Below, piece after piece: positions 2 through 25,454 of a stretch of 33,072 bases of DNA. The notes below the pieces were generated by a model. It was not told where the DNA came from. It was given only the letters and a program-made list of their open reading frames with translations, and searched no databases. Where the stretch lies: positions 1-33,072 of IMG/VR virus record IMGVR_UViG_3300009545_000048, one strand, 5' to 3'. This DNA is from a virus. Every line of letters begins with the position of its first letter. The stretch's first letter is position 1. The translations under genes were made by a program, and so were the position numbers.

Positions 2-166
2 GCAGACGAAGCAGGCGCAACAGACAAGGACGCAGTCAGGAAAGCGAACAACAAGTACAAGAGCATCGCAGACCGTGACGAACGCATCAAAGCCGCAATC
101 ATCAAATCAGCAATCGCAGGCGTCACAACAGCAGCAACAAGCCCCACAGAGAAAAGCCGCAGTTAA
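2..166 (+). CDS. 3' end of an upstream gene (partial), overlapping terS
   Basis: This frame is open from the left edge to TAA at 164-166 and encodes 54 residues with a normal mixed composition (charged helix-like start, then an AGVTTAATSPTEK tail). It overlaps the apparent start of the terminase small subunit by about 90 bp in another frame. The terS frame over the same bases reads as a Gln/Ser/Thr-rich tract, so this frame may be the true coding frame here. No family is recognised, and the start lies outside the window. Confidence 0.4.
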   Translation, partial: ADEAGATDKDAVRKANNKYKSIADRDERIKAAIIKSAIAGVTTAATSPTEKSRS

Positions 167-794
167 GACATCGGTCCGGACGCCGACAGCAACAACACCG
201 TACCCGGAACTCTCATACCAGCAGATCAACTTCTGTACCGAGTACTTCACCACGACAAACGCAACCGACGCATATATGAAGGCGTTTCCGTGTGGTGATT
301 GGGGACTTCCAACAATTAGTTCGCGTGCTTGCGTGTTGTTAAAAAATCCCAAGATCCAACTAAGGCTTCGTGAGCTAGAACAGCAAGCGACGCAACGGGC
401 ACAGGTAACACCGAACAGAATCGTTGCTGAGATCGCGAAACTGGCGTTCACCGATATCAGGAAAGCATTCGATGATGACGGGCAGTTGAAGCGGATCAAG
501 GACCTTGACGACGATACCGCAGCAGCGATCGCAGGTATCGAACACGAAGACCTGATGTCGAAGATCAACAAGGGATACAAGATCGGTACGACAACAAAGA
601 TCAAGCTTGCCGACAAGCTGAACGCATTAGAGAAGCTGGCGAAGATGACCGGGCTTTATGCGGAGTCTGAAGGGCGTGCACTGGCGAACTCTGCCATTAG
701 CCTTGAGATGTTCCGCCAGATGATCGCGGACGCGGATACTCCAAAGACGATCGGATCAGGAACCACGATTGAGCAATTCCGACAAGAACCGTAA
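75..794 (+). CDS. Terminase small subunit (TerS)
   Basis: Probable DNA-recognition subunit of the packaging motor, which binds phage DNA and presents it to TerL. The part from about residue 42 has the Terminase_2-type layout: a helix-turn-helix segment (LSYQQINFCTEYF, then NATDAYMKAFP), a helical region (VTPNRIVAEIAKLAFTDIRKAF) and a conserved end (KLADKLNALEKLAKMTGLY). Length 239 aa. The first 40 residues are low-complexity Gln/Ser/Thr. GTG at 75 is the only usable start in the window; it sits in a GTGA overlap with a third, short frame, but the frame stays open to the left edge, so the true start may lie outside. TerL is about 7.7 kb downstream rather than adjacent, which is unusual. Confidence 0.85.
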   Translation: MTNASKPQSSNQQSQASQQQQQAPQRKAAVKTSVRTPTATTPYPELSYQQINFCTEYFTTTNATDAYMKAFPCGDWGLPTISSRACVLLKNPKIQLRLRELEQQATQRAQVTPNRIVAEIAKLAFTDIRKAFDDDGQLKRIKDLDDDTAAAIAGIEHEDLMSKINKGYKIGTTTKIKLADKLNALEKLAKMTGLYAESEGRALANSAISLEMFRQMIADADTPKTIGSGTTIEQFRQEP

Positions 795-806
795 AGTACA
801 GCAATG
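787..806 (+). promoter_or_regulatory. Leaderless-type promoter (TAAAGT, 6 nt, ATG)
   Basis: TAAAGT (792-797) lies exactly 6 nt before the ATG at 804, which places the expected transcription start on the A of the start codon. TTGAGC at 769-774 gives a -35 with 17-bp spacing. The TAA stop of terS forms the first half of the -10 box. The 20-mer AACCGTAAAGTACAGCAATG recurs unchanged at 6653-6672. No Shine-Dalgarno is present. Confidence 0.55.
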
Positions 807-950
807 ATCAAGTTCGTATTGACGGTGTTCGGTGGTTGGGGACTAGGCGTCGGGCTTGCACATATTGCGCGGAATGATCACAAGATTGCAGCACCGTTGC
901 TGGTGATCGCGTCGTGCTTGGTGCTTTGGTTCACGTACCCACGGAGATAA
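804..950 (+). CDS. Small two-helix membrane protein
   Basis: Encodes 48 aa. A glycine-rich hydrophobic segment (about residues 3-20, FVLTVFGGWGLGVGLA) and a second one (about 29-44, APLLVIASCLVLWFTY) are separated by a short polar loop (IARNDHK) and followed by a basic end (PRR). This fits a two-pass inner-membrane protein. The ATG follows the repeated TAAAGT element with no Shine-Dalgarno. No family is recognised; small phage membrane proteins can be holin-like or superinfection-exclusion factors, but nothing here separates these roles. Confidence 0.6.
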   Translation: MIKFVLTVFGGWGLGVGLAHIARNDHKIAAPLLVIASCLVLWFTYPRR

Positions 951-952
951 TT

Positions 953-1177
953 ATGCCGACACGATGGTTTCGTTCCGCACAACAACGGACAAAAGATATG
1001 TGGCCTGTGGGTGCTCGCGTTCAGCATGAACAGCAGACAGGCACCATTACGGCACAGTGCGATCAAGGGCAACGCACAGTATTAACGACGGGTGAATCGC
1101 TTGCATGGTACCGGGTCACGTGGGATGACGGTACGGAAGCGTTTCGCATCAACGAGAAGGTTTTGGTGAGGATCTAA
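953..1177 (+). CDS. Small SH3/Tudor-like protein, function unknown
   Basis: Encodes 74 aa. I chose ATG 953 over an upstream in-frame ATG at 914 because GGAG lies at 943-946 and the longer form would overlap the preceding gene. The core (WPVGARVQHEQQTGTI, then WYRVTWDDGTEAFRI) resembles small beta-barrel folds, with an alternating hydrophobic pattern and a W-D-D-G turn. The N-terminus is basic. This could be a nucleic-acid or protein-binding adaptor, but that is inference from pattern only. It overlaps the next gene by one base (TAATG). Confidence 0.55.
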   Translation: MPTRWFRSAQQRTKDMWPVGARVQHEQQTGTITAQCDQGQRTVLTTGESLAWYRVTWDDGTEAFRINEKVLVRI

Positions 1178-1449
1178 TGGTCAAAGAAGAAATCGTCACG
1201 ACGAAGTACATCAGGTGTGATCGATGTGGCGTAGGACTCGCACAAGAAGGGCAGAATTCACGATTCCAAGTCTTGCTTGACGATACACCAATAGACCATT
1301 TCTTGCTGGTGACGATCGAACAACATGACAATCGTCCGACGTCAAGCGACCGCGATGAACGGCGTGAAGCCGATCTGTGTGCTGCATGCACGCGATTCGC
1401 TTTAGATATCGCAATGCGGCAAGCCACAAACCCGGTAATCAAAAAATGA
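1177..1449 (+). CDS. Zinc-ribbon-like small protein
   Basis: Encodes 90 aa. It has two paired-cysteine knuckles, CDRCGVGL near residues 14-21 and CAAC near residues 73-76, spaced like a treble-clef or zinc ribbon with a central beta-rich part (RFQVLLDDTPIDHFLLVTI). Plausibly zinc-binding; no specific function is recognised. It starts inside the previous stop and ends in an ATGA overlap with the next gene, so it is translationally coupled. Confidence 0.55.
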   Translation: MVKEEIVTTKYIRCDRCGVGLAQEGQNSRFQVLLDDTPIDHFLLVTIEQHDNRPTSSDRDERREADLCAACTRFALDIAMRQATNPVIKK

Positions 1450-1811
1450 TGCACATCTATCCAAAGTGGCAACGTGGGGACACAATCGCCGAACGCATTG
1501 AAACCGCCCGGTACATTCGCAAAAAGAATCTTGAACGATCAGGCATTAAGTTTTGGACGATCGCTGATTACGTTGAATCGAAGTTGACACCGGGTGAACG
1601 GCTAAAGCGAATCCTCGATCAGTGCACATACGATACCCGTGAACTGGCGCTTGCATCAGGACGCACAGCACCGATTGACGATGTCATCGCGGCATTGAAA
1701 GTGTTGCATGATGCTGATCCGCATGCGTTCACCTACTCGCCAAATGTGATCTTACAGCGACGGCTATTAAAGCCGTCATCGTGGTTTAGCAGATTCTTTA
1801 AGGGGGAATAA
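1446..1811 (+). CDS. Hypothetical helical protein
   Basis: Encodes 121 aa. ATG 1446 overlaps the preceding TGA (a second ATG follows at 1449); the longer upstream extension lies entirely within the previous gene and was rejected. The protein is basic at the N-terminus (RGDTIAERIETARYIRKKN), then helical, ending RFFKGE. No domain is recognised. The final codons include AAGGGGGA, which acts as the Shine-Dalgarno of the next gene. Confidence 0.55.
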   Translation: MMHIYPKWQRGDTIAERIETARYIRKKNLERSGIKFWTIADYVESKLTPGERLKRILDQCTYDTRELALASGRTAPIDDVIAALKVLHDADPHAFTYSPNVILQRRLLKPSSWFSRFFKGE

Positions 1812-2195
1812 ATGAAACGAATCACCGAACACCTAGTTGCAGGCGAAGAGAACGGACCACACCTTGTTGTTGCTGCTGTTGGTCAACTATCGAATGGTGG
1901 CGCGCACCACTTCTATCAAATTCGAGGCAAGAACAGTGCTGACGCCGCCGCTACATCGGCGGTTGCGAGCATTGAATTTCAATGCGGCGCGGTCAAGGAA
2001 GTGGGTATCAATGGCGTACAGAGCACCGCATTGATTGCAATCATGCTTGATCAGTTGCGTGACTTCCAAACAGGTCCGTTTGCCTGTGAAGACAACGTCG
2101 ACGCGATCGAGCATTTAAAAGCCGCGTTAACGGCATTACAACGGCGCACACGTGATCGCATCGCGCGGGGTGTAGAAGGACAGGCACGGCCGTGA
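1812..2195 (+). CDS. Tad1/Acb2-type sponge-like protein (putative anti-defence)
   Basis: Encodes 127 aa. Three blocks match what I remember of the Tad1 (Thoeris anti-defence 1) / Acb2-Tad1 hairpin family: EFQCGAVKEVGINGV (residues 55-69), RDFQTGPFACEDN (83-95) and RRTRDRIARGVEG (111-123), in the usual order with helices between, preceded by a beta-rich segment (18-38). Family members sequester signalling nucleotides: Tad1 binds the glycocyclic-ADPR signal of Thoeris, and some relatives bind CBASS cyclic oligonucleotides. The ligand here cannot be read from sequence. GGGGGA lies upstream of ATG 1812. It sits in the small-gene array after terS, a plausible early counter-defence location. Family assignment is from memory of the motif pattern; function is inferred. 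Confidence 0.68.
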   Translation: MKRITEHLVAGEENGPHLVVAAVGQLSNGGAHHFYQIRGKNSADAAATSAVASIEFQCGAVKEVGINGVQSTALIAIMLDQLRDFQTGPFACEDNVDAIEHLKAALTALQRRTRDRIARGVEGQARP

Positions 2196-2398
2196 CAAGC
2201 AAGGAACGCGCCGACGTACGGGCCACGCCTGCGGATCTGTGTCATGCATGCTTATCGCAAACTCTGCACACCGAGGAACAGAAGCGGCGTTATCACCCGC
2301 TAATGGGTCATGGTTGCTACGGTGCGGCAAGCTGTGCGTGTGGCAATCCTGCGTGTCCGTATAGTTCAGAGAACCGAAAGAAGGTCGCGAATGGATAA
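2192..2398 (+). CDS. Cysteine-rich small protein (zinc-binding?)
   Basis: Encodes 68 aa from a GTG that overlaps the previous TGA (GTGA). Six cysteines fall at 17, 20, 42, 48, 50 and 55 (CHAC, then CYGAASCACGNPACPY), a density suggesting metal binding. No family is recognised. Its last codons overlap the ATG of the next gene. Confidence 0.5.
   Translation: MTSKERADVRATPADLCHACLSQTLHTEEQKRRYHPLMGHGCYGAASCACGNPACPYSSENRKKVANG
2360..2365 (+). promoter_or_regulatory. Possible promoter -10 in conserved CCGTATAGTTC element
   Basis: CCGTATAGTTC (2358-2368) matches four other sites that precede gene starts (10832, 13313, 14145 and 16404). Here it is followed by AAGAAGG (2379-2385) and ATG 2391, so it would give a short leadered mRNA. 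It lies inside the end of the upstream gene, so this copy is less certain. Confidence 0.35.
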
Positions 2399-2861
2399 CG
2401 TAATTTTTCCACCACAGCAACCATCAACAAGCGAAATCCTTGACGAATTTTCCACACGACATAACGAACTCTGCAATCAGGTGTTTGGTGACATGCTTGA
2501 ACTCGGAAAGGAACCGCCACCTATGCCGACTAGTGAGGTCATAAAGACCGCTATGGAAGCATCCTTCAAACAGTTGTCGCGTGGGCTTAGCGATTATGCA
2601 AAGGCCACGCAGTTAGCAGCAATCCGTCTGTCAAAACTTCACACCGCGTTGATGCCAATCCAGTCGTTTCACATAACCGCGTCGAATCCGCCGAAGAAAC
2701 GCGCGATGAACAGCATCTTGATCAATGTCGAGAACATGAGCCGCGATCTTTCCGGCAAGAAGCTAATCCGCAATCGCAAACTTTGGATTAACCGCAAGCG
2801 TGCGTATGACCGACGTCTTCGTGAGTGGGTTGTCGACTTTGAAAGCCGTCCGCACTTTTAG
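2391..2861 (+). CDS. Hypothetical protein
   Basis: Encodes 156 aa. ATG 2391 has a Shine-Dalgarno (AAGAAGG) and overlaps the previous gene's stop (ATGGATAA). The N-terminus is proline-rich (FPPQQPSTSE), the middle is helical, and the C-terminal half is strongly basic (KLIRNRKLWINRKRAYDRRL), which could contact nucleic acid. No domain is recognised. Confidence 0.5.
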   Translation: MDNVIFPPQQPSTSEILDEFSTRHNELCNQVFGDMLELGKEPPPMPTSEVIKTAMEASFKQLSRGLSDYAKATQLAAIRLSKLHTALMPIQSFHITASNPPKKRAMNSILINVENMSRDLSGKKLIRNRKLWINRKRAYDRRLREWVVDFESRPHF

Positions 2862-2864
2862 ATT
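2859..2864 (+). promoter_or_regulatory. Leaderless-type -10 box (TAGATT, 6 nt, ATG)
   Basis: TAGATT ends 6 nt before ATG 2871, and no Shine-Dalgarno is present between the genes. The TAG stop of the preceding gene supplies the first three bases. It is proposed by analogy with the other TAnnnT-6-ATG sites in the window; no clear -35 is seen. Confidence 0.4.
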
Positions 2865-2870
2865 ACTCTT

Positions 2871-3308
2871 ATGGATTTCTCTAAACTGTCCGGATTCAGA
2901 CCGCAACCCGATCTAGTCCGTGATGAGATCAAAGAACTGATCCGACGCGGCAACATTGCGATTGCGGAATTCGAGGGGTTGCGGATGAACAGTTATGAAC
3001 GCGACGCTATCATTCCGGCAATGTCGCGCGAATTGCTAATCCAACAAACTGTCTACACGATCAAGAACTGTTCACCATTCAGTCACGGGCGTTGTGCCGC
3101 CACCTACGACGAAGCGTTGCAACTGTTTGCTGCTGAACTGGCAAAGCGGATGTCGGTCAAATCTTCAACAGCACCGATTACGGCGTCGCGCCTGCGTGAC
3201 ATCGCACACATGATTTGTCCGGTGTTGAGTACGAATGACGTCGCGGCAGACGCATCGGAAGACCTCGATCGGTTAGCAGTATGGATTGACGAAGTGGGAA
3301 CCAAATGA
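2871..3308 (+). CDS. Hypothetical helical protein
   Basis: Encodes 145 aa with mostly helical composition (IKELIRRGNIAIAEFEGL, DEALQLFAAELAKRM), net acidic at the end. No known motif. The start is preceded by a TAnnnT box rather than a Shine-Dalgarno, and the stop is in an ATGA overlap with the next gene. Confidence 0.5.
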   Translation: MDFSKLSGFRPQPDLVRDEIKELIRRGNIAIAEFEGLRMNSYERDAIIPAMSRELLIQQTVYTIKNCSPFSHGRCAATYDEALQLFAAELAKRMSVKSSTAPITASRLRDIAHMICPVLSTNDVAADASEDLDRLAVWIDEVGTK

Positions 3309-3655
3309 CCAAACTAATCGGCAAAGACGGCAAGGAAGTAGAATTTTCAATTCAGCGTGATGACTGCACGTGGCGGTACGGGCAAAGACCCGCAAGAGTT
3401 CCGGGCAGTCCACACTTGATTGTCCCGAACGCCATTCACATCGACGTTAAGTTCGTGGGTGCGAATCAGAAAACGGCGTCAATCAATTTGGTCGGGCGTA
3501 TGTGTTTCGCGATGACCGAAGGGCATTTTGCAATCATCGATCCAGCAAACGGCGGATTCGAGGTCAACAGCTTCGAACGCGGTTTGATCCGTAGTCTTGA
3601 CATTTCCGCACAGGTCAACGACATAGACCCGCATACAGGCGTTTTAAAGCCCTAG
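3305..3655 (+). CDS. Hypothetical protein
   Basis: Encodes 116 aa with beta-rich composition (IHIDVKFVGANQKTASINLV, HFAIIDPANGGFEV). There is no catalytic or binding motif I can name. Start-stop coupling with the previous gene; stop codon TAG. Confidence 0.5.
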   Translation: MTKLIGKDGKEVEFSIQRDDCTWRYGQRPARVPGSPHLIVPNAIHIDVKFVGANQKTASINLVGRMCFAMTEGHFAIIDPANGGFEVNSFERGLIRSLDISAQVNDIDPHTGVLKP

Positions 3656-3680
3656 AAGCGTTTCCGGGTCCGACAGGATC

Positions 3681-3732
3681 ACCACAGGGGTAGCGATCGA
3701 TTCTAGGTACCTTAAAAATCCAACCACAGGGG
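3681..3732 (+). repeat. Direct repeat ACCACAGGGG in the gap before the next gene
   Basis: ACCACAGGGG occurs at 3681-3690 and again at 3723-3732. The second copy supplies the AGGGG Shine-Dalgarno for ATG 3737; the first copy has no start codon after it. The gap 3656-3736 holds no convincing gene. Confidence 0.5.
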
Positions 3733-3736
3733 TTTT

Positions 3737-3910
3737 ATGAGCATCGGTGATGCAGTTGCGGGGCAAGTCTTCAGCTTTTGCTACAAGTGCCATGTGGAAA
3801 TACCGTTTCCGGCAAAAAGCACCCTGTGTGCTGCTTGTCTGAAAGCCGCGTCTGAACAAGAATCACGCGACGCGACCTTTCACCGTATAGAAGTCAAGGG
3901 AACAAAATGA
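3737..3910 (+). CDS. Small zinc-ribbon-like protein
   Basis: Encodes 57 aa. CYKC (15-18) and CAAC (31-34) form a two-knuckle zinc-ribbon pattern within 20 residues, followed by a charged tail (EQESRDATFHR). The ATG has AGGGG 4-5 nt upstream. Function unknown. Coupled to the next gene by an ATGA overlap. Confidence 0.5.
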   Translation: MSIGDAVAGQVFSFCYKCHVEIPFPAKSTLCAACLKAASEQESRDATFHRIEVKGTK

Positions 3911-4032
3911 AATTTCGGATTGCTTGGCTGGTATACGGGCGGCAGTACATGAAGTTGAGCATGCATGCCGCTATCGTGTGGGGCATTTACCTAGACCTGT
4001 CGCTTCCCGTTGATGAACGCATTGTTGATTAG
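3907..4032 (+). CDS. Small protein ending in an amber codon; possible read-through to 4116
   Basis: Encodes 41 aa to TAG 4030-4032 (MKFRIAWLVYGRQYMKL, ending VDERIVD). The same frame continues for 27 codons with protein-like composition (SPLKYELERLNASVEKWQ) to TAA 4114-4116, overlapping the start of the next gene by the usual few codons. It is therefore either a gene broken by a point mutation (CAG or GAG to TAG would restore it), an amber read-through product, or chance. The amber version is annotated. Confidence 0.4.
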   Translation: MKFRIAWLVYGRQYMKLSMHAAIVWGIYLDLSLPVDERIVD

Positions 4033-4097
4033 GAATCACGCGTTGCAGCGTCGCCGTTAAAGTATGAGCTAGAACGGTTGAACGCATCGGTCGAAAA

Positions 4098-4337
4098 ATG
4101 GCAGAGAAAAAAGTAAAGACCTATATCCAACACTGCATTTCGAATCACAGCAGTGCTGCTAAGATTCCGGGTGTTATGAAGTGCTGGCTATTCTCCGTCG
4201 ACGGCGTTGTTTGGAAGTGGCGCACAGGTCACACGTTGCAGGAAGCGTACAATGCGGCGTGCCTGCTATTCGGTCGCGCACCAAAGCATGTAAAGTTTGA
4301 CGGATACTGTTTCGATCAGGAGTTCGTGAGCAAATGA
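4098..4337 (+). CDS. Hypothetical protein
   Basis: Encodes 79 aa: a basic start (MAEKKVKTYIQHC), a core with W/F pairs (KCWLFSVDGVVWKWRTGHT), then a helix (LQEAYNAACLLFG). It resembles no family I can name. ATGA overlap with the next gene. Confidence 0.5.
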   Translation: MAEKKVKTYIQHCISNHSSAAKIPGVMKCWLFSVDGVVWKWRTGHTLQEAYNAACLLFGRAPKHVKFDGYCFDQEFVSK

Positions 4338-4615
4338 TTCCAACATGGCGGCAAGGAACGAAAGTAAAACAGAACGTGTATGAAGGCGACCGCCCGGTCT
4401 GCCAAACACACAACGTGCTTGACGCCGTCACCATGACGCTTTCTGTCAACTACGTGCGTATTTCGTACGACATCCTGAAACAGCTTGAATGGATTGAACG
4501 GCAACATGAAATGGTTTGTCCACTTTGCTTTAACGGGCAGGCTGATGGACACGTGAAGGATTGCAAGCTTGCCGCGATGATCGCGGTCGCGAAGACATTC
4601 GTCGAGAGGTTGTGA
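4334..4615 (+). CDS. Hypothetical protein with a C-terminal Cys cluster
   Basis: Encodes 93 aa. CPLC (62-65) and a later KDC form a partial zinc site with nearby His; the segment from MVCPLCFNGQADGHVKDC looks metal-binding. The N-terminal part is beta-rich. It starts in the preceding stop (ATGA) and ends in TGATG with the next. Confidence 0.5.
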   Translation: MIPTWRQGTKVKQNVYEGDRPVCQTHNVLDAVTMTLSVNYVRISYDILKQLEWIERQHEMVCPLCFNGQADGHVKDCKLAAMIAVAKTFVERL

Positions 4616-4929
4616 TGCCACACGGTAAGAACCACACCAAGCATTTCACCACCAGAAAGTTCAATCCGCATCATGACGGGCAAACTGATCACACGCTTAC
4701 ATTCAGCGATACATTGCGGAATGCAGGAAACGATCGTGCGCGTAATGGGCGTTATACGTTCGAAGACGCTTGCGACATTGCCCGTAAAGTAGTGGCAGCA
4801 GAGATGCTAAACAGCGTGCCTGTCAGCATCGTCAAAGATGGTTGTTGGGCGGTACCGCCGTCGTCACGCCCGTCGAACTGGCAAGCGCGCAACATTCCAG
4901 AACCGGAGAATCCTGAATGGCAGGTTTAA
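4615..4929 (+). CDS. Hypothetical protein
   Basis: Encodes 104 aa. I chose ATG 4615 (TGATG overlap, GAGAGG upstream) over a longer in-frame extension inside the previous gene. The N-terminus is His/Lys-rich (MPHGKNHTKHFTTRKFNPHH), the C-terminus proline-rich (PPSSRPSNWQARNIPEPENP). Function unknown. Confidence 0.5.
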   Translation: MPHGKNHTKHFTTRKFNPHHDGQTDHTLTFSDTLRNAGNDRARNGRYTFEDACDIARKVVAAEMLNSVPVSIVKDGCWAVPPSSRPSNWQARNIPEPENPEWQV

Positions 4930-5159
4930 ACAGTGAAAATGCAATCGGTCAACTGAACGACTGGTGTGCGGAAGACCCCGATAACCGTGAGTACTTGGTT
5001 GACTGCGAGTTCGGACAGATTCGAATTCGTATCCAATACAAGGATCAAAAAGGCATTACTCGCCAAATGGCGCGTATGGTATCGCTTGCCGCCGCGCAAG
5101 ATGCAAACCTTGACGTCATCGCTTTCGAGGTTGCCAAGATGATCGAAGCATTCCGATGA
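4917..5159 (+). CDS. Hypothetical protein, paralogue of the next gene
   Basis: Encodes 80 aa. The end, DANLDVIAFEVAKMIEAF, matches the end of the following gene (HTDIDIVAFTVDHMIQEM), and the preceding strands (REYLVDCEFGQIRIRI versus RDWSLTF) also align loosely. The pair looks like a tandem duplication. No function is recognised. It overlaps both neighbours by a few bases. Confidence 0.55.
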   Translation: MAGLNSENAIGQLNDWCAEDPDNREYLVDCEFGQIRIRIQYKDQKGITRQMARMVSLAAAQDANLDVIAFEVAKMIEAFR

Positions 5160-5452
5160 CACAGGCGGCGCAGATCAACTTTTTGGTGAAGCACGCCAGT
5201 GATGCAATGGCGATCTTGACGTGTTGGAAGAATGAACGTGTCGGACGTGATTGGTCACTGACGTTTTCGTCGGATGAACCACACCCGCTTGTTCCTGATC
5301 CTACGCTTGTGATTGCGTTGAAGGATCGCACCTATAAGCACGTGTCAATGTGCAAATATCTGACGCTTCAAATGATCGAGCACACCGACATCGATATAGT
5401 TGCTTTCACGGTCGACCATATGATTCAGGAAATGAAGGGGCAACCACGATGA
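5156..5452 (+). CDS. Hypothetical protein, paralogue of the previous gene
   Basis: Encodes 98 aa and shares the D-x-D-(V/I)-(I/V)-AF-x-V-x-x-MI C-terminal signature with the 80-aa product just upstream. It carries an insertion in the middle (SSDEPHPLVPDP). It starts in an ATGA overlap and ends in another. Function unknown. Confidence 0.55.
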   Translation: MTQAAQINFLVKHASDAMAILTCWKNERVGRDWSLTFSSDEPHPLVPDPTLVIALKDRTYKHVSMCKYLTLQMIEHTDIDIVAFTVDHMIQEMKGQPR

Positions 5453-6660
5453 AGAACGATAAGGTTCTACTATTTCACACCGCTGATGGACCCGAATCAA
5501 TCAGCATCTACACAAACCAGGAACGCGCAGTCGTTGACTTCGCGAGCCATCCACAAGCCGTCTATGTTGACCTGTCGTTGAATGATGCGTCCGTACAGTT
5601 CGGACCATTCCAACTGCCCCACATTTATAACGCATTGCAGAAAGCGTTTCCGTCGGCACTTCCGAAAGCACTGCGCACGTACACCCCTACCTTCGACGAT
5701 GAACCGCGTGATCAGCCTGCACAGGCCACGGGTACGTATCGGTTCGGTCGACCTGTGCCCGTGAAGCCTGTGTGTCCTGAACATGATGGAGCTGCAATCA
5801 GCAGTGCAAAAGAAACGCTCGCGGGCATAATTCTGTCGAATGAAGTGCAGGGTGCAGTCCGCGTACTTTGGCAAGCGTTGAATTGGGCGCAATACTATCG
5901 TGATCAGTACCGCAACGACGCGCAAGAAGCCCGTAACGCCGCGAAAGAATCAGCAGCAGAACGTGACAGGCATATTGAACGCCTGAAATATCTTCCATTA
6001 GACAACAAGGCAGTAGAAGATATCGCGGCATTGAATAAAGAACTCGCCAAACTTCGTATTGACCTTGCCAAAGTTCACGGTGAACTTACTCAAACGCGCG
6101 AAAGCCGCGACAAATTCAAAGGGCAAGCATTTGATGCAGACAAGATCAGTGATGGGTTGCGTGAGCATCGCGACAAACTGCAACAACAGCTTGATCACGA
6201 GTGCATGCTTAATCTTCGCCTGAACAACGACCTCATTGACGCACATGAACAACGTGACGAGTACCACCGAATGCGTGACGAATGTGCCGAACGTATCAAG
6301 GTGCTTGAATGCCGTCAAGCACCATCGACGCCGATAGAAGTTATGGACCGTGCGTATAGGGGACAAGCAATCAAGCCCGTCGACATTGCTGACGAGAAGT
6401 TGCGCGTGATTCCGAGTGTCGTGATCGAAGCGTTCAACGAAGAGATTGCAAAAGCGTACGTCGGCAACGCCGCACATGTCAGACAAGACGATGTGGTCGC
6501 GAATCTTGAAGGGCGCGGGTGGCAACGGTCCGACATCTTCGCAAACCACTGGCTTGACGTCGAACAGATCTATCAAGTTGCTGGTTGGAAAGTCGAGTAC
6601 GACAAGCCCGCTTACAACGATATTGGCGGGCATGCAACTTTCGTGTTTTCGAAACCGTAA
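5449..6660 (+). CDS. Large coiled-coil protein with a conserved C-terminal domain
   Basis: Encodes 403 aa; ATG 5449 is in a ATGA overlap, and the 33-residue upstream extension lies inside the previous gene. It has an N-terminal globular part (1-110, beta-rich, ending in a proline-rich linker), then a long coiled coil (about 150-310; NKELAKLRIDLAKVHGELTQ, RDKLQQQLDHECMLN). The C-terminal domain (about 310-403) contains VVIEAFNEEIAKAY, VRQDDVVANLE and QVAGWKVEYDKPAYND; I recall this block ending other phage proteins of unknown role. It is by far the largest product in this small-gene array, so may be a scaffold for a complex. Its TAA is the first half of the next promoter. Confidence 0.6.
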   Translation: MKNDKVLLFHTADGPESISIYTNQERAVVDFASHPQAVYVDLSLNDASVQFGPFQLPHIYNALQKAFPSALPKALRTYTPTFDDEPRDQPAQATGTYRFGRPVPVKPVCPEHDGAAISSAKETLAGIILSNEVQGAVRVLWQALNWAQYYRDQYRNDAQEARNAAKESAAERDRHIERLKYLPLDNKAVEDIAALNKELAKLRIDLAKVHGELTQTRESRDKFKGQAFDADKISDGLREHRDKLQQQLDHECMLNLRLNNDLIDAHEQRDEYHRMRDECAERIKVLECRQAPSTPIEVMDRAYRGQAIKPVDIADEKLRVIPSVVIEAFNEEIAKAYVGNAAHVRQDDVVANLEGRGWQRSDIFANHWLDVEQIYQVAGWKVEYDKPAYNDIGGHATFVFSKP

Positions 6661-6672
6661 AGTACAGCAATG
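6653..6672 (+). promoter_or_regulatory. Leaderless-type promoter, second copy of the 20-mer
   Basis: AACCGTAAAGTACAGCAATG is identical to 787-806. TAAAGT (6658-6663) is 6 nt from ATG 6670, again using the preceding TAA stop. There is no Shine-Dalgarno. Conservation across the stop, spacer and start codon of unrelated gene pairs argues for a functional element. Confidence 0.55.
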
Positions 6673-6876
6673 GATGAACAGCTAAACTTGCGTGACGCAG
6701 TGCGTGCGATTGCGGCGCGTCACAAAGCCCGTAAACAGGCAGAAATCAGGCTTGTTGCCGCCGCGATACTGGCGCGCGATTACCTTGAAGATGCATACGG
6801 CATGTCCGATGGCATCGCGACCGAACTACGTACCGCTCTTGCCGAATATCGCAAGTTCTTTAGGATGAAAACGTAA
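6670..6876 (+). CDS. Small helical protein
   Basis: Encodes 68 aa, alanine/arginine-rich and predicted all-helical (LRDAVRAIAARHKARKQAEI, LVAAAILARDYLEDAYG). No family is recognised. It follows the duplicated leaderless-type promoter and ends in TAATG with the next gene. Confidence 0.5.
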   Translation: MDEQLNLRDAVRAIAARHKARKQAEIRLVAAAILARDYLEDAYGMSDGIATELRTALAEYRKFFRMKT

Positions 6877-7319
6877 TGGATAACGTTTACAAGTGCCATG
6901 TGTGCGGGTGCCAAGTGTTTTTGTACCCGACTGCGAATGTCGTGCCGCATTACGGACCTGACGGGAAGAAATGCGCGGCGAATAATCAGCCGTGGCAGGA
7001 CACCAGGACCGAAGAAGACAAGAAGCTTGAATCGATCTATCGTGAACGTCCGATGATGGCAATTTACAACGACGCCATGATCGCGCACAAGTGGTTTGCC
7101 AAGCACTTCGGCGAACAGATGAACGGGCGCGACTTCGCGGTCAAGTGTGAAATGGCGGACCGCATACTTGCCGAACGTGAACAGGCAGACCGTGCATTAG
7201 TGACGGCGGCAAACAATATGCTTGCGGTGTCGTACGAACTGTATGGTTCGATGGAAATGATCGCGTACGAATTGAAGGATGCGGTCACAGCATTTGAAAA
7301 ATCAAGGGGCAAGCAATGA
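6876..7319 (+). CDS. Zinc-finger plus helical protein
   Basis: Encodes 147 aa. The N-terminus has a zinc knuckle (CHVCGCQVFLYP, then HYGPDGKKC), followed by long helices (about 45-145; FAVKCEMADRILAEREQADR). The layout suggests a metal-stabilised N-terminal module on a helical partner-binding body. Function unknown. Coupled at both ends. Confidence 0.55.
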   Translation: MDNVYKCHVCGCQVFLYPTANVVPHYGPDGKKCAANNQPWQDTRTEEDKKLESIYRERPMMAIYNDAMIAHKWFAKHFGEQMNGRDFAVKCEMADRILAEREQADRALVTAANNMLAVSYELYGSMEMIAYELKDAVTAFEKSRGKQ

Positions 7320-7465
7320 GCATCTATCAGGCGTTTTGCGTGTGCGGCCACAAGACCGCAACCCGGTCGAAAGAGTTCGTCTGCGAAAAGTGCGGACGGC
7401 ACGGTGCAATCAACTGGGACAATGAAAACAACAAGGCCAAAGAATCGGCCAAAGGCAAGAAGTGA
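7316..7465 (+). CDS. Small zinc-ribbon-like protein
   Basis: Encodes 49 aa. CVCGH (8-12) and CEKCGRHG (23-30) form a classic compact zinc ribbon, with a lysine-rich tail (KAKESAKGKK). It is coupled by ATGA to the previous gene and TGATG to the next. Function unknown. Confidence 0.5.
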   Translation: MSIYQAFCVCGHKTATRSKEFVCEKCGRHGAINWDNENNKAKESAKGKK

Positions 7466-8037
7466 TGAGCGAACCAAAGATTCTTATCGGAGTTTGTCAG
7501 ACATGCAGCACCGAGGATGTGCAGACCGCCGCATACACGGTCTACACGGAACGTGCCGCGAAGCAGTCCGGGAACCCGTGTGCCACCGAGGTTATTGAAC
7601 AGTGCGAGGTCTGCGCATCAACGTATGTCGGTAACATCGCGCACAACCCAAAACTCTATCCGGATACTGATTTGAATACTGTGCGGATCATGGCGCAGAT
7701 TGAGAACTTGCGTGCTAAGCGTGTTAACGAAATCCTTGCCAGAATCGACACTGAGTACACGAAGCAATCGATTCTTGAACAGGCGATCAAACAAAGCGCG
7801 ACAGCGACTATAATGCATGCAGGTGAGAAGTCTATGCCGTCAACGTTTGATGTTGTTGGGGGAACTGGTACACACGACACGCCACCGGGTGTATTCGCAG
7901 AGTGGGTTAACTCTGTCGAGTACAAAACTGAGATCGCGCGCATCAAGGCCATGCACGCAACGATCAAACGAGACATCGAAATGACGATGGGTGATTTGTG
8001 GCAAGCGATCGTCAAGCTTGAAAAGCTGATCAAATAA
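7465..8037 (+). CDS. Zinc-ribbon and coiled-coil protein
   Basis: Encodes 190 aa. ATG 7465 was chosen over an in-frame GTG three bases earlier because of the TGATG overlap. Cysteine pairs at the start (CQTC, then QCEVC) are separated by about 35 residues, and the remainder is largely helical with a central glycine-containing loop (DVVGGTGTHDTPPG). No family is recognised. Confidence 0.5.
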   Translation: MSEPKILIGVCQTCSTEDVQTAAYTVYTERAAKQSGNPCATEVIEQCEVCASTYVGNIAHNPKLYPDTDLNTVRIMAQIENLRAKRVNEILARIDTEYTKQSILEQAIKQSATATIMHAGEKSMPSTFDVVGGTGTHDTPPGVFAEWVNSVEYKTEIARIKAMHATIKRDIEMTMGDLWQAIVKLEKLIK

Positions 8038-8232
8038 ATGACGCTACCGCGATACCTTGATCAGCATTGCGTACTGTGTGGTCAAAAGCATGTTCGTTAT
8101 GTGAAGACCAAAGGCGGGTTTCACAAGTGCTGCGATCGCTGTATCAAAATGCTTGAAGGCTTCGGCAAGTCCAGCATGGTTCAGCGTACCGAGAAGGAGG
8201 TTGTCGATGGGTATATACGACGGTTACTGTGA
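8038..8232 (+). CDS. Small zinc-finger protein
   Basis: Encodes 64 aa. CVLCGQKH (11-18) pairs with CCDRC (31-35), a treble-clef-like four-cysteine site, followed by a basic helix (EKEVVDGYIRRLL). It begins directly after the preceding TAA. Function unknown. Confidence 0.5.
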   Translation: MTLPRYLDQHCVLCGQKHVRYVKTKGGFHKCCDRCIKMLEGFGKSSMVQRTEKEVVDGYIRRLL

Positions 8233-8398
8233 CGACTGTGGACTGTACCACGGTTTCCCTTACACTCAAGAGCACTGCGATAAAGCACGTGCAGCTGAGC
8301 AACGTGTGAAGGATCGTGGAGCGCGTTTTGCGGAGCTTAGAAGCCAAGCTGACGAGAAGATCAGTGAGCAGGTTAACAAGGAGCTTCCAGTCCTGTGA
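8207..8398 (+). CDS. Small CxxC protein
   Basis: Encodes 63 aa. ATG 8207 has the strong Shine-Dalgarno GAAGGAGG (8193-8200); a longer in-frame form was rejected. CDDCGLYHG near the N-terminus with a later EHC could hold a metal, and the rest is one charged helix. It overlaps the previous gene by 26 bp. Function unknown. Confidence 0.5.
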   Translation: MGIYDGYCDDCGLYHGFPYTQEHCDKARAAEQRVKDRGARFAELRSQADEKISEQVNKELPVL

Positions 8399-8472
8399 GT
8401 GGAATCTTCCTGCGACAAGTCCGCCGTTGATTTGCTGCTGAAATTGTCGAGTTAATCCAATCGCTCAAATAA
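8395..8472 (+). pseudogene. Possible small ORF interrupted by TGA
   Basis: A GTG at 8395 (GTGA overlap with the preceding stop) opens SGIFLRQVRR, then TGA (8428-8430), then the same frame continues FAAEIVELIQSLK to TAA 8470-8472. A TGG or CGA in place of TGA would give a 25-aa amphipathic peptide. It could equally be chance in the 92-bp gap before terL. Confidence 0.25.
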
Positions 8473-8478
8473 AGGCGC

Positions 8479-8484
8479 TAGAAT
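8479..8484 (+). promoter_or_regulatory. Leaderless-type -10 box before terL (TAGAAT)
   Basis: TAGAAT ends 6 nt before GTG 8491 (spacer CGTTTG), and no Shine-Dalgarno is present. The surrounding GCTAGAATCG is repeated at 10286-10295. No convincing -35 is seen. Confidence 0.45.
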
Positions 8485-8490
8485 CGTTTG

Positions 8491-10101
8491 GTGCCCGTCA
8501 AGCGCCCGCAAGTACCTGCAAGCCGTCCTGTTTCGCCTAGTGGCCTTAAAAACGCGAATACGACCGCTTTAAAAAGCCCGGTCGGTTTCAGCCGTGGTGT
8601 TCTAGGCCATGATCCTTGGGAATTACAGGAACAAATCCTAGATAGCCTGTGGAAGAACCGCCGAACTGCCGTCCGGTCGTGCCATAGTTCCGGCAAGACG
8701 ATGATTTCTGCGGACGCTGTCCTTGCATGGATTGCGCAGTACCAGGAAGGTATCGCCATCACCACAGCACCCGGTTGGATGCAGGTTGAAAAGTTGTCGT
8801 GGGGTGAGATCCGATCGTCTGCCGCGCATTCGAAAGTAGCATTTCCGACGCCACTGTTGACGGAACTGAAGATTTCCGACAAAAACTATGCGATCGGAAT
8901 ATCAACCCGCGAGTCGACCCGCTTTCAAGGCTTCAAGGGCACACACGTTCTAATCGTTCTCGACGAAGCGCCCGGTGTGCGTCCCGAAGTGTGGGAAGCA
9001 ATCAACGGATTGCGCGCGGGTGGTATCGTTCACATTCTTGCAATCGGCAATCCTACAATCGTTGGTGGCGATTTCCACGACGCTTTCACGACAAAGCGTG
9101 ATCTCTGGAAGTGCATCACAATCAGTGCATTCGATACTCCTAATCTCCTAGATTGCTATATCGAATACGATCGCGAGGAACCGGAAGTCGGTCCCGATGG
9201 AAAGTCGCGTGTCGTGATGAAGAAGGTGCGGCGCGGAACCGGGCACCGCAACCTGATGAAGATGATGAAGGATGAACTAGAAGAATCGGTCCGTCCGTAC
9301 CTGTGCTCGCGCGTGTGGGTCCGGGAAATGATCGAGGAGTTCGGGTTTGAGCATCCTTACGTGCAGTCGCGCGTATACGGTGAATTTCCGAGTGAATCTG
9401 AAGACGCACTTGTTCCGTTGTCATGGATTGAGCGATCAAAATACAACGAGAAAAGCAAACAAGGTGACGGCGTAATGGCAGGGCTTGATGTCGCAGGACC
9501 GGGCGAAGCTGAAACGTCCTTAACCGTTCTCGACAACGACAATGTCGAACTTGTCAAAGCGTGGCCATTTCCGGACCCGCGCGGCGACGTGATTGCAGCG
9601 CTTGAACCCTACGAATCGAAGTTAAAGCGCTTGAATGTCGATTCAATCGGTGTTGGTTGGGGTATCTACTTGCACATGTGCGACCGCTACAACCGTGACG
9701 GCAAGACGATCGTCTATCCGATCAATGTGGGTGTTGCGGCGGCAGACAAAAAGAAGTTCTTCAACGCGAAGGCTGAATATTATTGGGGTTTACGTCTCAA
9801 GTTTAAAGACGGATTTATCACGGGTCTCACTGACGAGAAAACCATCGGGCAACTTGCCGCGATTCGTTATTCACATCTTGCTGATGGAAAGATCAAAATC
9901 GAAAGTAAAGATGAACTTGTCAAGCGTGGCGTGAAAAGCCCGGACCGTGCGGAATCTTTGATGCTGGCGTCGGCACGCGGACGGAACGATTTATTTGAAC
10001 TCGGAATGGTCGACGATAGTGTTGACGGCGGACAATACGATTACAGCGACGGAAGCGACGAAGACGAATTAACAGCACCGTCGAAATGGAGAATGCGGTG
10101 A
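8491..10101 (+). CDS. Terminase large subunit (TerL)
   Basis: Packaging motor ATPase and nuclease. An N-terminal ATPase has a Walker A (SCHSSGKT, about residues 63-70) and a Walker B with catalytic Glu (VLIVLDE, about 153-159), with the adenine-side AITTAPGWMQV between. The C-terminal RNase H-like nuclease shows MAGLDVAGPGEAET (about 330-343; first metal Asp), SIGVGWGIY, and an end segment SPDRAESLMLA. It is 536 aa from GTG 8491; an in-frame TTG at 8488 is possible, but GTG fits the leaderless spacing. Its TGA overlaps the next start. Confidence 0.95.
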   Translation: MPVKRPQVPASRPVSPSGLKNANTTALKSPVGFSRGVLGHDPWELQEQILDSLWKNRRTAVRSCHSSGKTMISADAVLAWIAQYQEGIAITTAPGWMQVEKLSWGEIRSSAAHSKVAFPTPLLTELKISDKNYAIGISTRESTRFQGFKGTHVLIVLDEAPGVRPEVWEAINGLRAGGIVHILAIGNPTIVGGDFHDAFTTKRDLWKCITISAFDTPNLLDCYIEYDREEPEVGPDGKSRVVMKKVRRGTGHRNLMKMMKDELEESVRPYLCSRVWVREMIEEFGFEHPYVQSRVYGEFPSESEDALVPLSWIERSKYNEKSKQGDGVMAGLDVAGPGEAETSLTVLDNDNVELVKAWPFPDPRGDVIAALEPYESKLKRLNVDSIGVGWGIYLHMCDRYNRDGKTIVYPINVGVAAADKKKFFNAKAEYYWGLRLKFKDGFITGLTDEKTIGQLAAIRYSHLADGKIKIESKDELVKRGVKSPDRAESLMLASARGRNDLFELGMVDDSVDGGQYDYSDGSDEDELTAPSKWRMR

Positions 10102-16417: not shown

Positions 16418-16771
16418 ATGCAGAACAAAAAGCTAACCAAACCCACCAAACCAGTAAAAGAACGTCTTCAAATCAAACGTGATTTCCCTGCAAGCTTAGC
16501 TGAACAGCAACCCGCGATTAAGCTTGCTGAACAGCGGTCCGCCAATGCATTGACGAACTCGTTTCCTGAAATCCTGTACGTGTATCCGGGCACAGAAAAC
16601 AACAACACGTACGACGCTTACACGGAAATCGAAGGTGCGGACGCAGACAACGACGTCGCTATTTACGAATTGAAGTCCGTCAGGTCCGTGACCATCGAAC
16701 ACCGTGCTGTCTTAAAGGACGTGCACAACCGTCTCGACAACATCGTCATTGACGGCGTCAAGGTCGACTGA
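16418..16771 (+). CDS. Hypothetical protein
   Basis: Encodes 117 aa. A lysine/proline-rich N-terminus (MQNKKLTKPTKPVKERLQIK) precedes a mixed domain (EILYVYPGTENNNTYDAYTE, then VAIYELKSVRSVTIEHRAVL). No family is recognised. It is first gene of the unit that encodes the PadR-like regulator. Confidence 0.5.
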   Translation: MQNKKLTKPTKPVKERLQIKRDFPASLAEQQPAIKLAEQRSANALTNSFPEILYVYPGTENNNTYDAYTEIEGADADNDVAIYELKSVRSVTIEHRAVLKDVHNRLDNIVIDGVKVD

Positions 16772-16772
16772 C

Positions 16773-17069
16773 GTGATCGGGCTTGAACACGCTGTCTTGA
16801 TAACGATTTTTCGGCGTCCGAATAGTTGGGGTACCGCGATCGCGGCAGACATGCGGCAACGCGGGTACCGCACATCAGACAGCGCGATCTATACGGCGTT
16901 AGCGCGCCTTGAAGCAAAGAAGTTGATCAGCGCAAAATTCAGTCCGCCAACATTCAAACAAGGTGGGCGTTCGAAAACGTTGTACACATTGACGGCAAAA
17001 GGACGAATCGAGGTCAATGCTGCTGCCGCGCTTTATGGTCAATTGACAGAAGGGTTGAACATTTGGTAA
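16773..17069 (+). CDS. PadR-family winged-helix regulator
   Basis: Encodes 98 aa from GTG 16773. The PadR signature is clear: LEHAVLITIFRRPNSWGTAI, DSAIYTALARLEAKKLISAK (recognition helix region) and GGRSKTLYTLTAKGRIEV (wing). PadR proteins bind DNA as dimers and usually repress their own operon and nearby genes, often responding to a small ligand through a C-terminal helix, which is short here. In a phage it could control timing of this array. The overlap with the next gene is TAATG. Confidence 0.8.
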   Translation: MIGLEHAVLITIFRRPNSWGTAIAADMRQRGYRTSDSAIYTALARLEAKKLISAKFSPPTFKQGGRSKTLYTLTAKGRIEVNAAAALYGQLTEGLNIW

Positions 17070-19058: not shown

Positions 19059-19427
19059 ATGAACATGCGAAAGAAACGCCTAGGTGTCTATTTCAACGAC
19101 GGACAGACCGTTAGCACATTCGAGTCGAACGATATCGCCAGATTGTCGGGTCCGTACCGTGAGAATCTTGCCGCCTTGATCAAGAAGACGTGCACGAACT
19201 TCTTCCGTGAAGCGGAAAAGCTGTTACAGGAACAGAAAGTCGAGAAGCTGAAAGACCCGTGTCCGGTATGTCTCGGTCTACTTTGGAATTCCTACAATTC
19301 TGATGACGTGTGCGCGCAGCATCAGGCTATCTACAGCGACTATGTCGCGACCACAAAAGAAAAGCCTGTGCCGATACGGGACTACTTCAACCGGGATGTG
19401 GTGAAGCCGGAATACCTTGACAACTAA
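19059..19427 (+). CDS. Hypothetical protein with zinc knuckle
   Basis: Encodes 122 aa from ATG 19059; a longer in-frame form runs through the previous gene and was rejected. CPVCLGLL and a later CAQHQ could form a Cys/His zinc site; the preceding part is helical (LAALIKKTCTNFFREAEKLL). Function unknown. Confidence 0.5.
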   Translation: MNMRKKRLGVYFNDGQTVSTFESNDIARLSGPYRENLAALIKKTCTNFFREAEKLLQEQKVEKLKDPCPVCLGLLWNSYNSDDVCAQHQAIYSDYVATTKEKPVPIRDYFNRDVVKPEYLDN

Positions 19428-19754
19428 ATGATCGATTGTGCGGAGTGCGGCAAGCCCGTCGATATTGTTGGAAGCTTCTTGCGGCGTGATCAGCTTTGCG
19501 AAATTTGCGGCGTACCTGTATGCTGCGTTTCAATGTGCGAGTCATGCCGCACCCGTCTTTTAACAAAAATCAATTTGATCGAAAAACGTTCTCATTTACC
19601 ACATTGGGATTCTTCCGAACAATTGCAGGAAAATTCCGAACTTAAAATTCCTAAATCGGGCGGACAATGTTTTCATGACTCCGAAGACCGCGCTTCCACC
19701 GAATGCGCCACCCGAAGCAAGCGCGATTTTGACGCGCATCATGACCACGACTGA
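19428..19754 (+). CDS. Small zinc-finger protein
   Basis: Encodes 108 aa. Multiple cysteine pairs (CAECGK, CEICGV, CCVSMCESC) in the first 45 residues suggest a double zinc ribbon or RING-like cross-brace. The last 27 residues overlap the next gene and look less like protein, so the true domain is probably residues 1-60. Confidence 0.5.
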   Translation: MIDCAECGKPVDIVGSFLRRDQLCEICGVPVCCVSMCESCRTRLLTKINLIEKRSHLPHWDSSEQLQENSELKIPKSGGQCFHDSEDRASTECATRSKRDFDAHHDHD

Positions 19755-20133
19755 TCCGACCGCTGTACTTAATTGGGTAACGGTCAACTTTCCGACCTTT
19801 CACGAATTCGTCGAGAAATTCCCCGCGCTTACATCTGTCGACCACATGTTCACGTTAGGGTTCCTGTTCAGTGCACTGTGGCACAAGCTGATGACGGAAG
19901 AAGGTCTTGACGTCCATGTTGACCACCTTCGCATGCATGTCATAAAAGTTGTCGGCGAAGAATTCAAGATCAAGAAGTACTCGATCCGTGGTGATCGTGC
20001 AGACCGTGCGCACCCGGAAGGTGAAACCACATATCCGACGCTTGAAGCGGCGCGCGCATGTCTGCCGTTAGGACTAACCAGATTAGAGCGTTCCGAGACC
20101 GACGACCCTGACGTTGTTGAACTTTGGGTCTAG
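19675..20133 (+). CDS. Hypothetical protein
   Basis: Encodes 152 aa from ATG 19675; ATG 19741 is an alternative with only 14 bp overlap, but codons in the first 22 positions look typical for this phage. Contains FVEKFPALTSVDHMFTLGF and a C-terminal acidic tail. No family recognised. Confidence 0.5.
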   Translation: MTPKTALPPNAPPEASAILTRIMTTTDPTAVLNWVTVNFPTFHEFVEKFPALTSVDHMFTLGFLFSALWHKLMTEEGLDVHVDHLRMHVIKVVGEEFKIKKYSIRGDRADRAHPEGETTYPTLEAARACLPLGLTRLERSETDDPDVVELWV

Positions 20134-20148
20134 CAGGCGTTTTAAGCG

Positions 20149-20228
20149 ATCGTCGGTCTTAGGGGTAGTTGCAGCACCGTCATAGCTTTTCGATTGAACT
20201 ATCAGGCTATAATTCGCAGTAACCGACG
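20149..20228. repeat. Inverted repeat flanking the portal promoter
   Basis: A 7-bp CGTCGGT near 20150 and its complement ACCGACG near 20221 bracket the TATAAT box. They could be an operator pair or form a long-range stem in the leader. Confidence 0.35.
20194..20213 (+). promoter_or_regulatory. Promoter for portal operon (TATAAT)
   Basis: TATAAT at 20208-20213 in a 113-bp gap, with TTCGC after it as in the TATAGTTCGC element at 14147. The nearest TTGAAC is only 8 bp upstream, so no standard -35 is seen. The leader before ATG 20247 is about 30 nt with a weak GAGAA Shine-Dalgarno. Confidence 0.5.
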
Positions 20229-20246
20229 GTTTAATCGAGAACGCCC

Positions 20247-21770
20247 ATGTCATTGATTGATCGCATTGCGAAAATAGCAACAACCGTACCGTACGCATAC
20301 GGTGGCGGACCCGCTGCCGTTCCGATGGTGTTACCGGGTGGCGTTCAGCAGTATGCAGACCTAAAACCAACTGAAGAGTTCGGCACAACCGGATTGTTGC
20401 GGACGCGCGGCGTCGGGTTCGTATATGAAGAATGGCTTGCGCAACTCTCGGTTAACAAGCAACGAAAAATCTTCCGGCAAATGCGCGACAATGACGCCGT
20501 TCTTGGCGCGCTATTCTTTGCTCTCGAAACAATCCTACGCACGACCGACTGGTACGTCGAAGAAGCGAAAGGCAATTCAAAAGCTGTTGGATATGCACGA
20601 TTCTTTGAAGAGTGCATGGACGACATGTCCCACACGTGGGAAGATTTCATCGCTGAAACCGTCAACATGTTCACGTTCGGATTCAGCCTTGCGGAACCTG
20701 TCTATAAGCGGCGCGATGGTCCCACGGGTGAATCTGTCAGTCGATTCGATGACGGTCTGATCGGGTGGCGCAAGCTTGCACCGCGCGCACAGGAATCAAT
20801 CGAGTACTGGGAATGGGACGATGAAGGCGGATTACGCGGGTGCGTGCAGTTAGCACCACCAAATTTCCGAACGATCCCGATTCCGATTGAACGTCTGTTA
20901 CTTTTCCGCACCACATCAATCAAAAATAATCCCGAAGGACGTTCAGTCCTGCGTAACTGTTTTCGTCCGTGGTTGCTGAAAACCCGTGACGAAGAAGTTG
21001 AAGGCATCGGACTTGAACGCGATCTTTGCGGCTTGCCTGTGCTGTATGCGTCGGCGGAAGCAATCGCCCAAATGGGCGGGCGTGCTAAAGCAGAACGCAT
21101 GATCCGGAACATTCGTGTTGACTCGCAAATGGGCGCAGTACTGCCCGCTGCATTCGACGGCAGTGGCAACCGAGTCGTTCAGCTTGAACTGTTGAAGACC
21201 GCAGGCGGCAAGCAATTTGATGCAGGTGCAATTATCAAGCGCCACAATCAAGACATCTTAAACACGGTGCTTGCCGGATTTATCCAACTGGGACAGACCG
21301 AAACAGGCGCGCGGGCGCTTCACATTTCGGCGACACAGATCTTTGCACGTGCACTATCAGTGTTTATGAAGGCAGTTGCAGCAGTCATGAATCGTCATGC
21401 GATTCCACGATTGATGGATTTGAACGGCATGGACTTAGGTTTAGCGCCGAAGCTGGTACCGGGTGAGATCGAAGGCCGTGACCTTGAAGAACTCGGTAAT
21501 TACGTTGCGAAGCTTGCGGCGGCGGGCATTGCGTTGACTGATCCTGATACCGCGTCAATCTTGCGTAAAAAGGCGGACTTGCCGGATCAGCCGTCAGAAA
21601 TGGCGCAAACATTCGGACTTGATGACGACTCCACAGCGGAACTTGACGAAGGTGACGATCCTGTTCAATCAGGCGATAATGCTGGACAACAGGAAGTTCA
21701 AACCACGGAGTTAGTAGAAAAGCGGCGGCGTGCGGTACCTGACAAATTACGACGTCGTAGAACCTACTAA
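20247..21770 (+). CDS. Portal protein (Mu gp29/DUF935 type)
   Basis: Encodes 507 aa. It forms the dodecameric ring through which DNA enters the head. Diagnostic blocks: RQMRDNDAVLGALFFALETI, ERLLLFRTTSIKNNPEGRSV, LRNCFRPWLLKTRD (about 205-250) and QDILNTVLAGFIQLGQTETG (about 335-360), all DUF935-like. The C-terminal tail is acidic then basic. MuF follows 9 bp downstream as in Mu-type head modules. The TAA stop forms the first half of the next -10 box. Confidence 0.9.
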   Translation: MSLIDRIAKIATTVPYAYGGGPAAVPMVLPGGVQQYADLKPTEEFGTTGLLRTRGVGFVYEEWLAQLSVNKQRKIFRQMRDNDAVLGALFFALETILRTTDWYVEEAKGNSKAVGYARFFEECMDDMSHTWEDFIAETVNMFTFGFSLAEPVYKRRDGPTGESVSRFDDGLIGWRKLAPRAQESIEYWEWDDEGGLRGCVQLAPPNFRTIPIPIERLLLFRTTSIKNNPEGRSVLRNCFRPWLLKTRDEEVEGIGLERDLCGLPVLYASAEAIAQMGGRAKAERMIRNIRVDSQMGAVLPAAFDGSGNRVVQLELLKTAGGKQFDAGAIIKRHNQDILNTVLAGFIQLGQTETGARALHISATQIFARALSVFMKAVAAVMNRHAIPRLMDLNGMDLGLAPKLVPGEIEGRDLEELGNYVAKLAAAGIALTDPDTASILRKKADLPDQPSEMAQTFGLDDDSTAELDEGDDPVQSGDNAGQQEVQTTELVEKRRRAVPDKLRRRRTY

Positions 21771-21773
21771 ACT
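21768..21773 (+). promoter_or_regulatory. Leaderless-type -10 box (TAAACT, 6 nt, ATG)
   Basis: TAAACT ends 6 nt before ATG 21780, with no Shine-Dalgarno between the genes. It is built on the portal gene's TAA stop. No -35 is seen; proposed from the shared geometry. Confidence 0.4.
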
Positions 21774-21779
21774 TTAACT

Positions 21780-22772: not shown

Positions 22773-22787
22773 TCAAGTTAAGTTTTG

Positions 22788-22823
22788 CCCGAATTTCGCG
22801 AAAGGAAATTGTCGGGATTTTTT
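22788..22823 (+). terminator. Rho-independent terminator
   Basis: CCCGAATTTC (22788-22797) pairs with GAAATT and CGGG (22805-22810 and 22813-22816) through a 2-nt bulge and a 7-nt loop, then ATTTTTT. It closes the portal-MuF unit; partial read-through to the downstream genes is likely since no clear promoter follows. Confidence 0.75.
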
Positions 22824-22883
22824 ATGGGCGGCAAAGCGATACGTAAACGGAATGTTGATGCACCGATTGCGGGGGATGACGAT

Positions 22884-23291
22884 ATGGCCGTAGACGTGGT
22901 GGCGTTGCTTAGCGGCGCGGGAATTTCGGGTGCGTTTGCACTGGCGGGCAATATGCTCGGTTGGTGGAAAAAGTCAGGCATCACGGAAGCCGAACTTGCG
23001 ACACGCATAGACGCACTAAAACTTGATCTCCAAACCGCTGCAAAAATCGCAGAAAAGGATGGCGGGTCTTTCAACCAAGCATTGAAAGACGCGATTATCG
23101 ACTTGCGAGGTGTCACCATGAACCTTGCACGAATGTCGAGTTCGCAAGAACAGATCAATCTGTTCACCTCGAAAACGGTCGAAGCAATTACACGAACCCA
23201 AGAAACGCATGCGCACATGTTGAACGAGTTGAAGACGTCGATATCCGTGTTGAAGGAAATTCTTGAACGCGAAGGGCGCGACGACAAATAG
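22884..23291 (+). CDS. N-anchored coiled-coil protein
   Basis: Encodes 135 aa from ATG 22884, which has GGGGGA 8 nt upstream; ATG 22824, directly at the terminator T-tract, is an alternative adding 20 residues. A hydrophobic segment (about 4-23; ALLSGAGISGAFALAGNMLG) precedes a long charged coil (about 30-130). The N-in or N-out tether plus coil resembles spanin- or holin-associated proteins, but no lysis gene is beside it. Function unknown. Confidence 0.5.
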   Translation: MAVDVVALLSGAGISGAFALAGNMLGWWKKSGITEAELATRIDALKLDLQTAAKIAEKDGGSFNQALKDAIIDLRGVTMNLARMSSSQEQINLFTSKTVEAITRTQETHAHMLNELKTSISVLKEILEREGRDDK

Positions 23292-23307
23292 AAAAAGGGG
23301 AAAGACG

Positions 23308-23466: not shown

Positions 23467-23467
23467 C

Positions 23468-25051: not shown

Positions 25052-25054
25052 GTT

Positions 25055-25411: not shown

Positions 25412-25454
25412 TCAATCCCCACGATTTGATGATCATTGGCCACAGGTGCAAAAG

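Follow-up and report, generated by a model that had tools for sequence, protein, structure and literature searches.

The DNA stretch analysed here, referred to as the window, is an entire IMG/VR record of 33,072 bases. An open reading frame (ORF) at positions 1812-2195 of the plus strand starts with ATG, remains intact throughout, ends with TGA, and encodes a product of 127 aa. The preliminary description quoted three residue blocks in this product, and all of them can be read from the sequence exactly as claimed: EFQCGAVKEVGINGV at residues 55-69, RDFQTGPFACEDN at residues 83-95, and RRTRDRIARGVEG at residues 111-123. A Shine-Dalgarno-like AGGGGG lies five bases 5' of the ATG. The TAA of the preceding ORF ends at 1811, directly before the start codon, and the next ORF begins with a GTG at 2192 that overlaps the TGA by 4 bases, a spacing as in translationally coupled operons. 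A scan for promoters and terminators returned a result at chance level. The features considered in this work are as follows.

75-794, plus strand: terminase small subunit (terS), Pfam Terminase_2, E 9e-25
1801-1806, plus strand: Shine-Dalgarno-like AGGGGG, read directly from the sequence
1812-2195, plus strand: predicted Tad1-family sponge gene, 127 aa (phmmer against PDB, PHROG 2428, and AlphaFold2 model matches)
1863-1979, plus strand: N-terminal beta-sheet part, strands at about residues 19-22, 34-39, and 50-56 (AlphaFold2 secondary structure)
1974-2015, plus strand: conserved loop E55-F56-Q57-x-G59 ... N67-G68
2022-2168, plus strand: two-helix hairpin, residues 71-87 and 93-119, with F85, Q86, G88, N95, R112, and R116 (model and invariant or near-invariant columns)
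8488-10101, plus strand: terminase large subunit (terL), PHROG 2, E 2e-18
20247-21770: portal
21780-22772: Mu F-like head protein, coordinates inferred from gene order
29341-30333: major capsid protein, approximately 41-43% identical to those of Pseudomonas phage RSP and Roseobacter phages

The ORF is one of a run of small, similarly oriented genes that lies between terS and terL. This run (795-8487) covers approximately 7.7 kb, and almost none of its genes match a known family. The locus had been described as an early small-gene array; the small-gene run is indeed present, but nothing points to early timing, and the gene is oriented like the structural genes. Viral contigs scanned with TerL contained no relative, and a 25 kb megablast query showed no DNA-level similarity to any isolate phage, so no close kin were found from which to read the host or the synteny. 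A scan with the major capsid protein recovered five contigs, one of which (L104) is identical to window positions 19341-33072 and runs past the window end with further tail-region genes. Tad1 was absent from these five records, which shows little because they are fragments or are unrelated outside the capsid region.

Several other genes of the window carry recognizable domains. In the ORF at 23468-25051, a 2H phosphoesterase (2'-5' RNA ligase) domain is fused to an XkdF-like prohead protease. Its sequence matches in the PDB are weak (best E 0.008) and include, at E 0.39, a poxvirus cGAMP phosphodiesterase. The Acb1 anti-CBASS enzymes are 2H phosphoesterases too. The 121 aa product of 26892-27257 contains a Tlde1 or L,D-transpeptidase-like domain (Pfam E 8e-11) and is possibly a phage cell-wall enzyme, while 16749-17069 encodes a PadR-like transcriptional regulator (Pfam E 1.5e-10).

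When compared directly with proteins of solved structure, the 127 aa product fell among Tad1 proteins. In a phmmer search against all PDB chains, CbTad1 (7uav/8kbg) was matched at E 1.1e-15, CmTad1 (8kbb) at E 2.2e-14, and phiKZ gp184 at E 4.5e-12, with nothing meaningful thereafter. PHROG 2428, which carries no named function, was matched at E 2e-30. By tblastn, 141 isolate phages were matched, every one below 60% identity, and some of these records are annotated as Tad1. Scans with a small alignment found 105 confirmed relatives in viral contigs, of which 80 were kept, and 7 in cellular genomes. A family HMM was built from 62 relatives, leaving the window protein out. With this profile the ORF scores 120 bits (E 3e-33) and is the only match when the window and L104 are searched in all six frames, while shuffling its residues 10,000 times gave at most 14 bits. 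Together with the phmmer result, this difference shows that the residue blocks are not a product of chance. The same profile matched the CbTad1 and CmTad1 PDB chains at E 5e-28 to 7e-26.

General family libraries gave a different picture. Pfam contained no significant match for the protein, and it is not listed at E≤1 for PF24729, the Acb2/Tad1 hairpin family, which is itself matched by 36 of the 63 members of our family alignment (best E 2e-7). NCBIfam and PADLOC likewise contained no significant match. An HMM search had been proposed earlier as a check; our own 62-relative profile gave a positive result, and the joint Acb2/Tad1 profile of Pfam did not. These libraries alone would therefore have overlooked the protein, which comparison with solved structures recognises.

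The conserved residues of the Tad1 family (FQxG, NG, F85, N95, R112, and R116) are present in the protein. F56, Q57, G59, N67, and G68 are invariant in the 62 relatives, and an alignment of 14 diverse members shows Q57, G59, G68, N95, A105, R112, and R116 to be invariant and F85 to be conserved in most. In the 2022 work of Leavitt et al., the pocket residues of CbTad1 are said to be F82, N92, R109, and R113; given a one-residue tag offset, we take these to correspond to F85, N95, R112, and R116. Other positions are unusual. E72 and R81 occur in all 62 relatives and are replaced by T72 and Q81 in the window protein, which also differs from the relatives at the highly conserved T70 and T124, and the usual GTH close to the C-terminus reads GQA. 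Loss of E72 alone need not abolish function, since CbTad1, a proven sponge, also lacks glutamate there and has a serine at the equivalent alignment position.

A single-chain AlphaFold2 model was obtained from the 63-row alignment (mean pLDDT 87.8, pTM 0.78). It contains strands near residues 2-4, 19-22, 34-39, and 50-56 and helices at 71-87 and 93-119, an arrangement typical of Tad1, in which an N-terminal antiparallel beta-sheet precedes two long helices. At E≤0.001, Foldseek returned 20 PDB chains, all of them Tad1. With VIA, Tad1 entries, including ligand-bound ones, gave DALI-scale Z 10.9-13.1 over 112-123 residues (Z 13 to 7uaw, 8smd, and 8kbf), and the next row, an unrelated fold, gave 7.0. 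In a viral structure library, the top match is named "Acb2/Tad1 hairpin domain-containing protein". Structure prediction and comparison, another check suggested at the outset, thus found only Tad1 structures to be significant (Z 11-13 versus 7). Since sequence and predicted fold agree independently, the product of 1812-2195 almost certainly belongs to the known Tad1 family, as a divergent member.

The preliminary description had named Tad1 and Acb2 together. The Tad1 part is borne out by the CbTad1 and CmTad1 matches, the 120-bit profile score, and the fold, whereas the fold speaks against Acb2. The two proteins are both nucleotide sponges and Pfam joins them in PF24729, so an Acb2 identity has some basis, yet we regard it as extremely unlikely. 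The Acb2 protomer is shorter, lacks a beta-sheet, and is built from three helices, two of them long and one short (PMC12043709), and no Acb2 chain is among the significant PDB matches from phmmer or Foldseek. An Acb2 identity was rejected on the beta strands of the model at 19-22, 34-39, and 50-56, which do not fit the three-helix form.

Among characterized proteins, CbTad1 from a Clostridium botulinum prophage (7uav, 7uaw, 8smd, 8kbe, 8kbf) shares with the window protein its fold of a beta-sheet and two helices (Z 13 over 121-123 residues), its length (approximately 124 versus 127 aa), and the F/N/R/R residues. It differs in overall identity (33-35%), in having arginine instead of Q81, and in its C-terminal tail. 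SBSphiJ7 Tad1, from a Bacillus phage, has the same motif order, is also free-standing, and is 39% identical over 117 residues, but its beta region is longer (143 aa in total) and its host and phage type are unlike those of the window. CmTad1 (8kbb; 8kbc with cAAA; 8kbd with cAAG) resembles the protein in fold (Z 11-12) and hairpin motifs, with an identity of only approximately 30%. The gene tad1 was found in phage SBSphiJ7, and its products sequester signals without degrading them (PMC12043709), including both 2'cADPR and 3'cADPR (PMC10022894). Tad1 dimers bind gcADPR or cyclic dinucleotides in pockets to which both protomers contribute loops, C-terminal tail, and helices, and the hexamer, composed of three dimers, has two sites for cyclic trinucleotides (PMC12043709).

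The best explanation, which we consider highly probable, is that 1812-2195 encodes a Tad1-family sponge predicted to counter host immune signals. As the fold and the conserved residues are present, the protein would be expected to act like characterized Tad1, most likely soaking up cyclic ADP-ribose isomers and cyclic di- and trinucleotides, the signals of Thoeris and CBASS, without enzymatic activity. Its binding, assembly, and specificity are inferred from characterized Tad1 proteins. Two chains would pair, and their loops, C-terminal tail, and helices would form pockets clamping glycocyclic ADP-ribose, the Thoeris signal, or cyclic dinucleotides. Three such dimers would build a hexamer offering two additional sites for cyclic trinucleotides, among them the CBASS signal cA3. 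With the signals held uncut, host effectors would stay inactive and the phage could replicate.

A different role is suggested by phiKZ gp184 (8y6v), which has a C-terminal Tad1 domain and is annotated as structural; it is an inner-body interactor that is injected into cells with the phage DNA (PMC10449902). A relative in Lactococcus phage 1706 is also annotated as a "structural protein". The window protein could accordingly be an inner-body or head component of Tad1 fold, with or without signal binding, a reading that we find quite improbable. It is free-standing and 127 aa long, whereas gp184 has 230 aa, with approximately 100 extra N-terminal residues; the match begins at residue 12 of the former and residue 111 of the latter. 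Moreover, the supported clade of gp184 and a Noxifer protein excludes the window protein, whose row is admittedly a long branch, so a shift from a sponge to a purely structural role is not indicated. Injection itself would also be compatible with a delivered sponge.

The protein might instead be a decayed or repurposed Tad1 that has kept the fold and lost ligand binding. The changes at E72, R81, T70, and T124 and the long branch agree with this, as does a relative (L001) with an in-frame amber stop. The reading frame of the window gene is nevertheless intact, with a good ribosome-binding site, and N95, R112, and R116 are retained along with the majority of the other near-invariant residues, and we judge such a loss to be very improbable. 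In the relative at L001:9998-10402, the TAG stands where others have the Gln of FQxG. Since the gene itself also terminates in TAG, a nonsense mutation seems more likely than a recoded genome. Its row helped only in choosing search patterns; the 63-row alignment, the AlphaFold2 model, and the tree were built without it.

Returning to the sponge interpretation, the unusual residues and the divergence of the protein weigh against it. In a tree of 78 rows, in which few columns limit the resolution and long branches can be misplaced, the window protein sits on a long end branch (1.92) outside every supported group, and its identity to any relative found is at most 46%. There is a small chance that it represents an early-diverging or fast-evolving Tad1 lineage whose pocket, with T72, Q81, and the changed C-terminal tail, now accommodates another signal, such as a cADPR isomer or cyclic oligonucleotide beyond those that characterized Tad1 proteins bind. 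Another viral contig (L034) carries two Tad1 genes near each other, at 4051-4410 and 5995-6378.

The most surprising by-product of the search is the occurrence in jumbo phages of Tad1 fusions, some of them virion-linked. In gp184 of phiKZ (L009:1171-1863), the Tad1 domain is at the C-terminus, and our literature search found no paper tying this protein to a sponge function. Burkholderia jumbo phage FLC9 gp131 (L003:2377-3393) consists of a cyclophilin-type prolyl isomerase (Pfam E 2.5e-44) fused, at its C-terminal end, to Tad1. In the 78-row tree it groups with a 376 aa protein from a 254 kb viral contig (L054:5263-6393). The latter also has a C-terminal Tad1 domain, and residues 13-110 at its N-terminus match the phiKZ major capsid protein family (PF25620, E 4e-25). 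A cyclophilin-like ORF (4433-5215) lies just upstream of it. These fusions point to Tad1 domains being attached to other phage proteins or delivered alongside them.

With this gene, the family gains a divergent Tad1 from a phage that is uncultivated and lacks close isolate relatives, while the picture of the family stays as it was. Its presence is a hint that the host of this phage uses nucleotide-signal immunity, and the protein may serve as a natural variant for probing which Tad1 residues set signal specificity.
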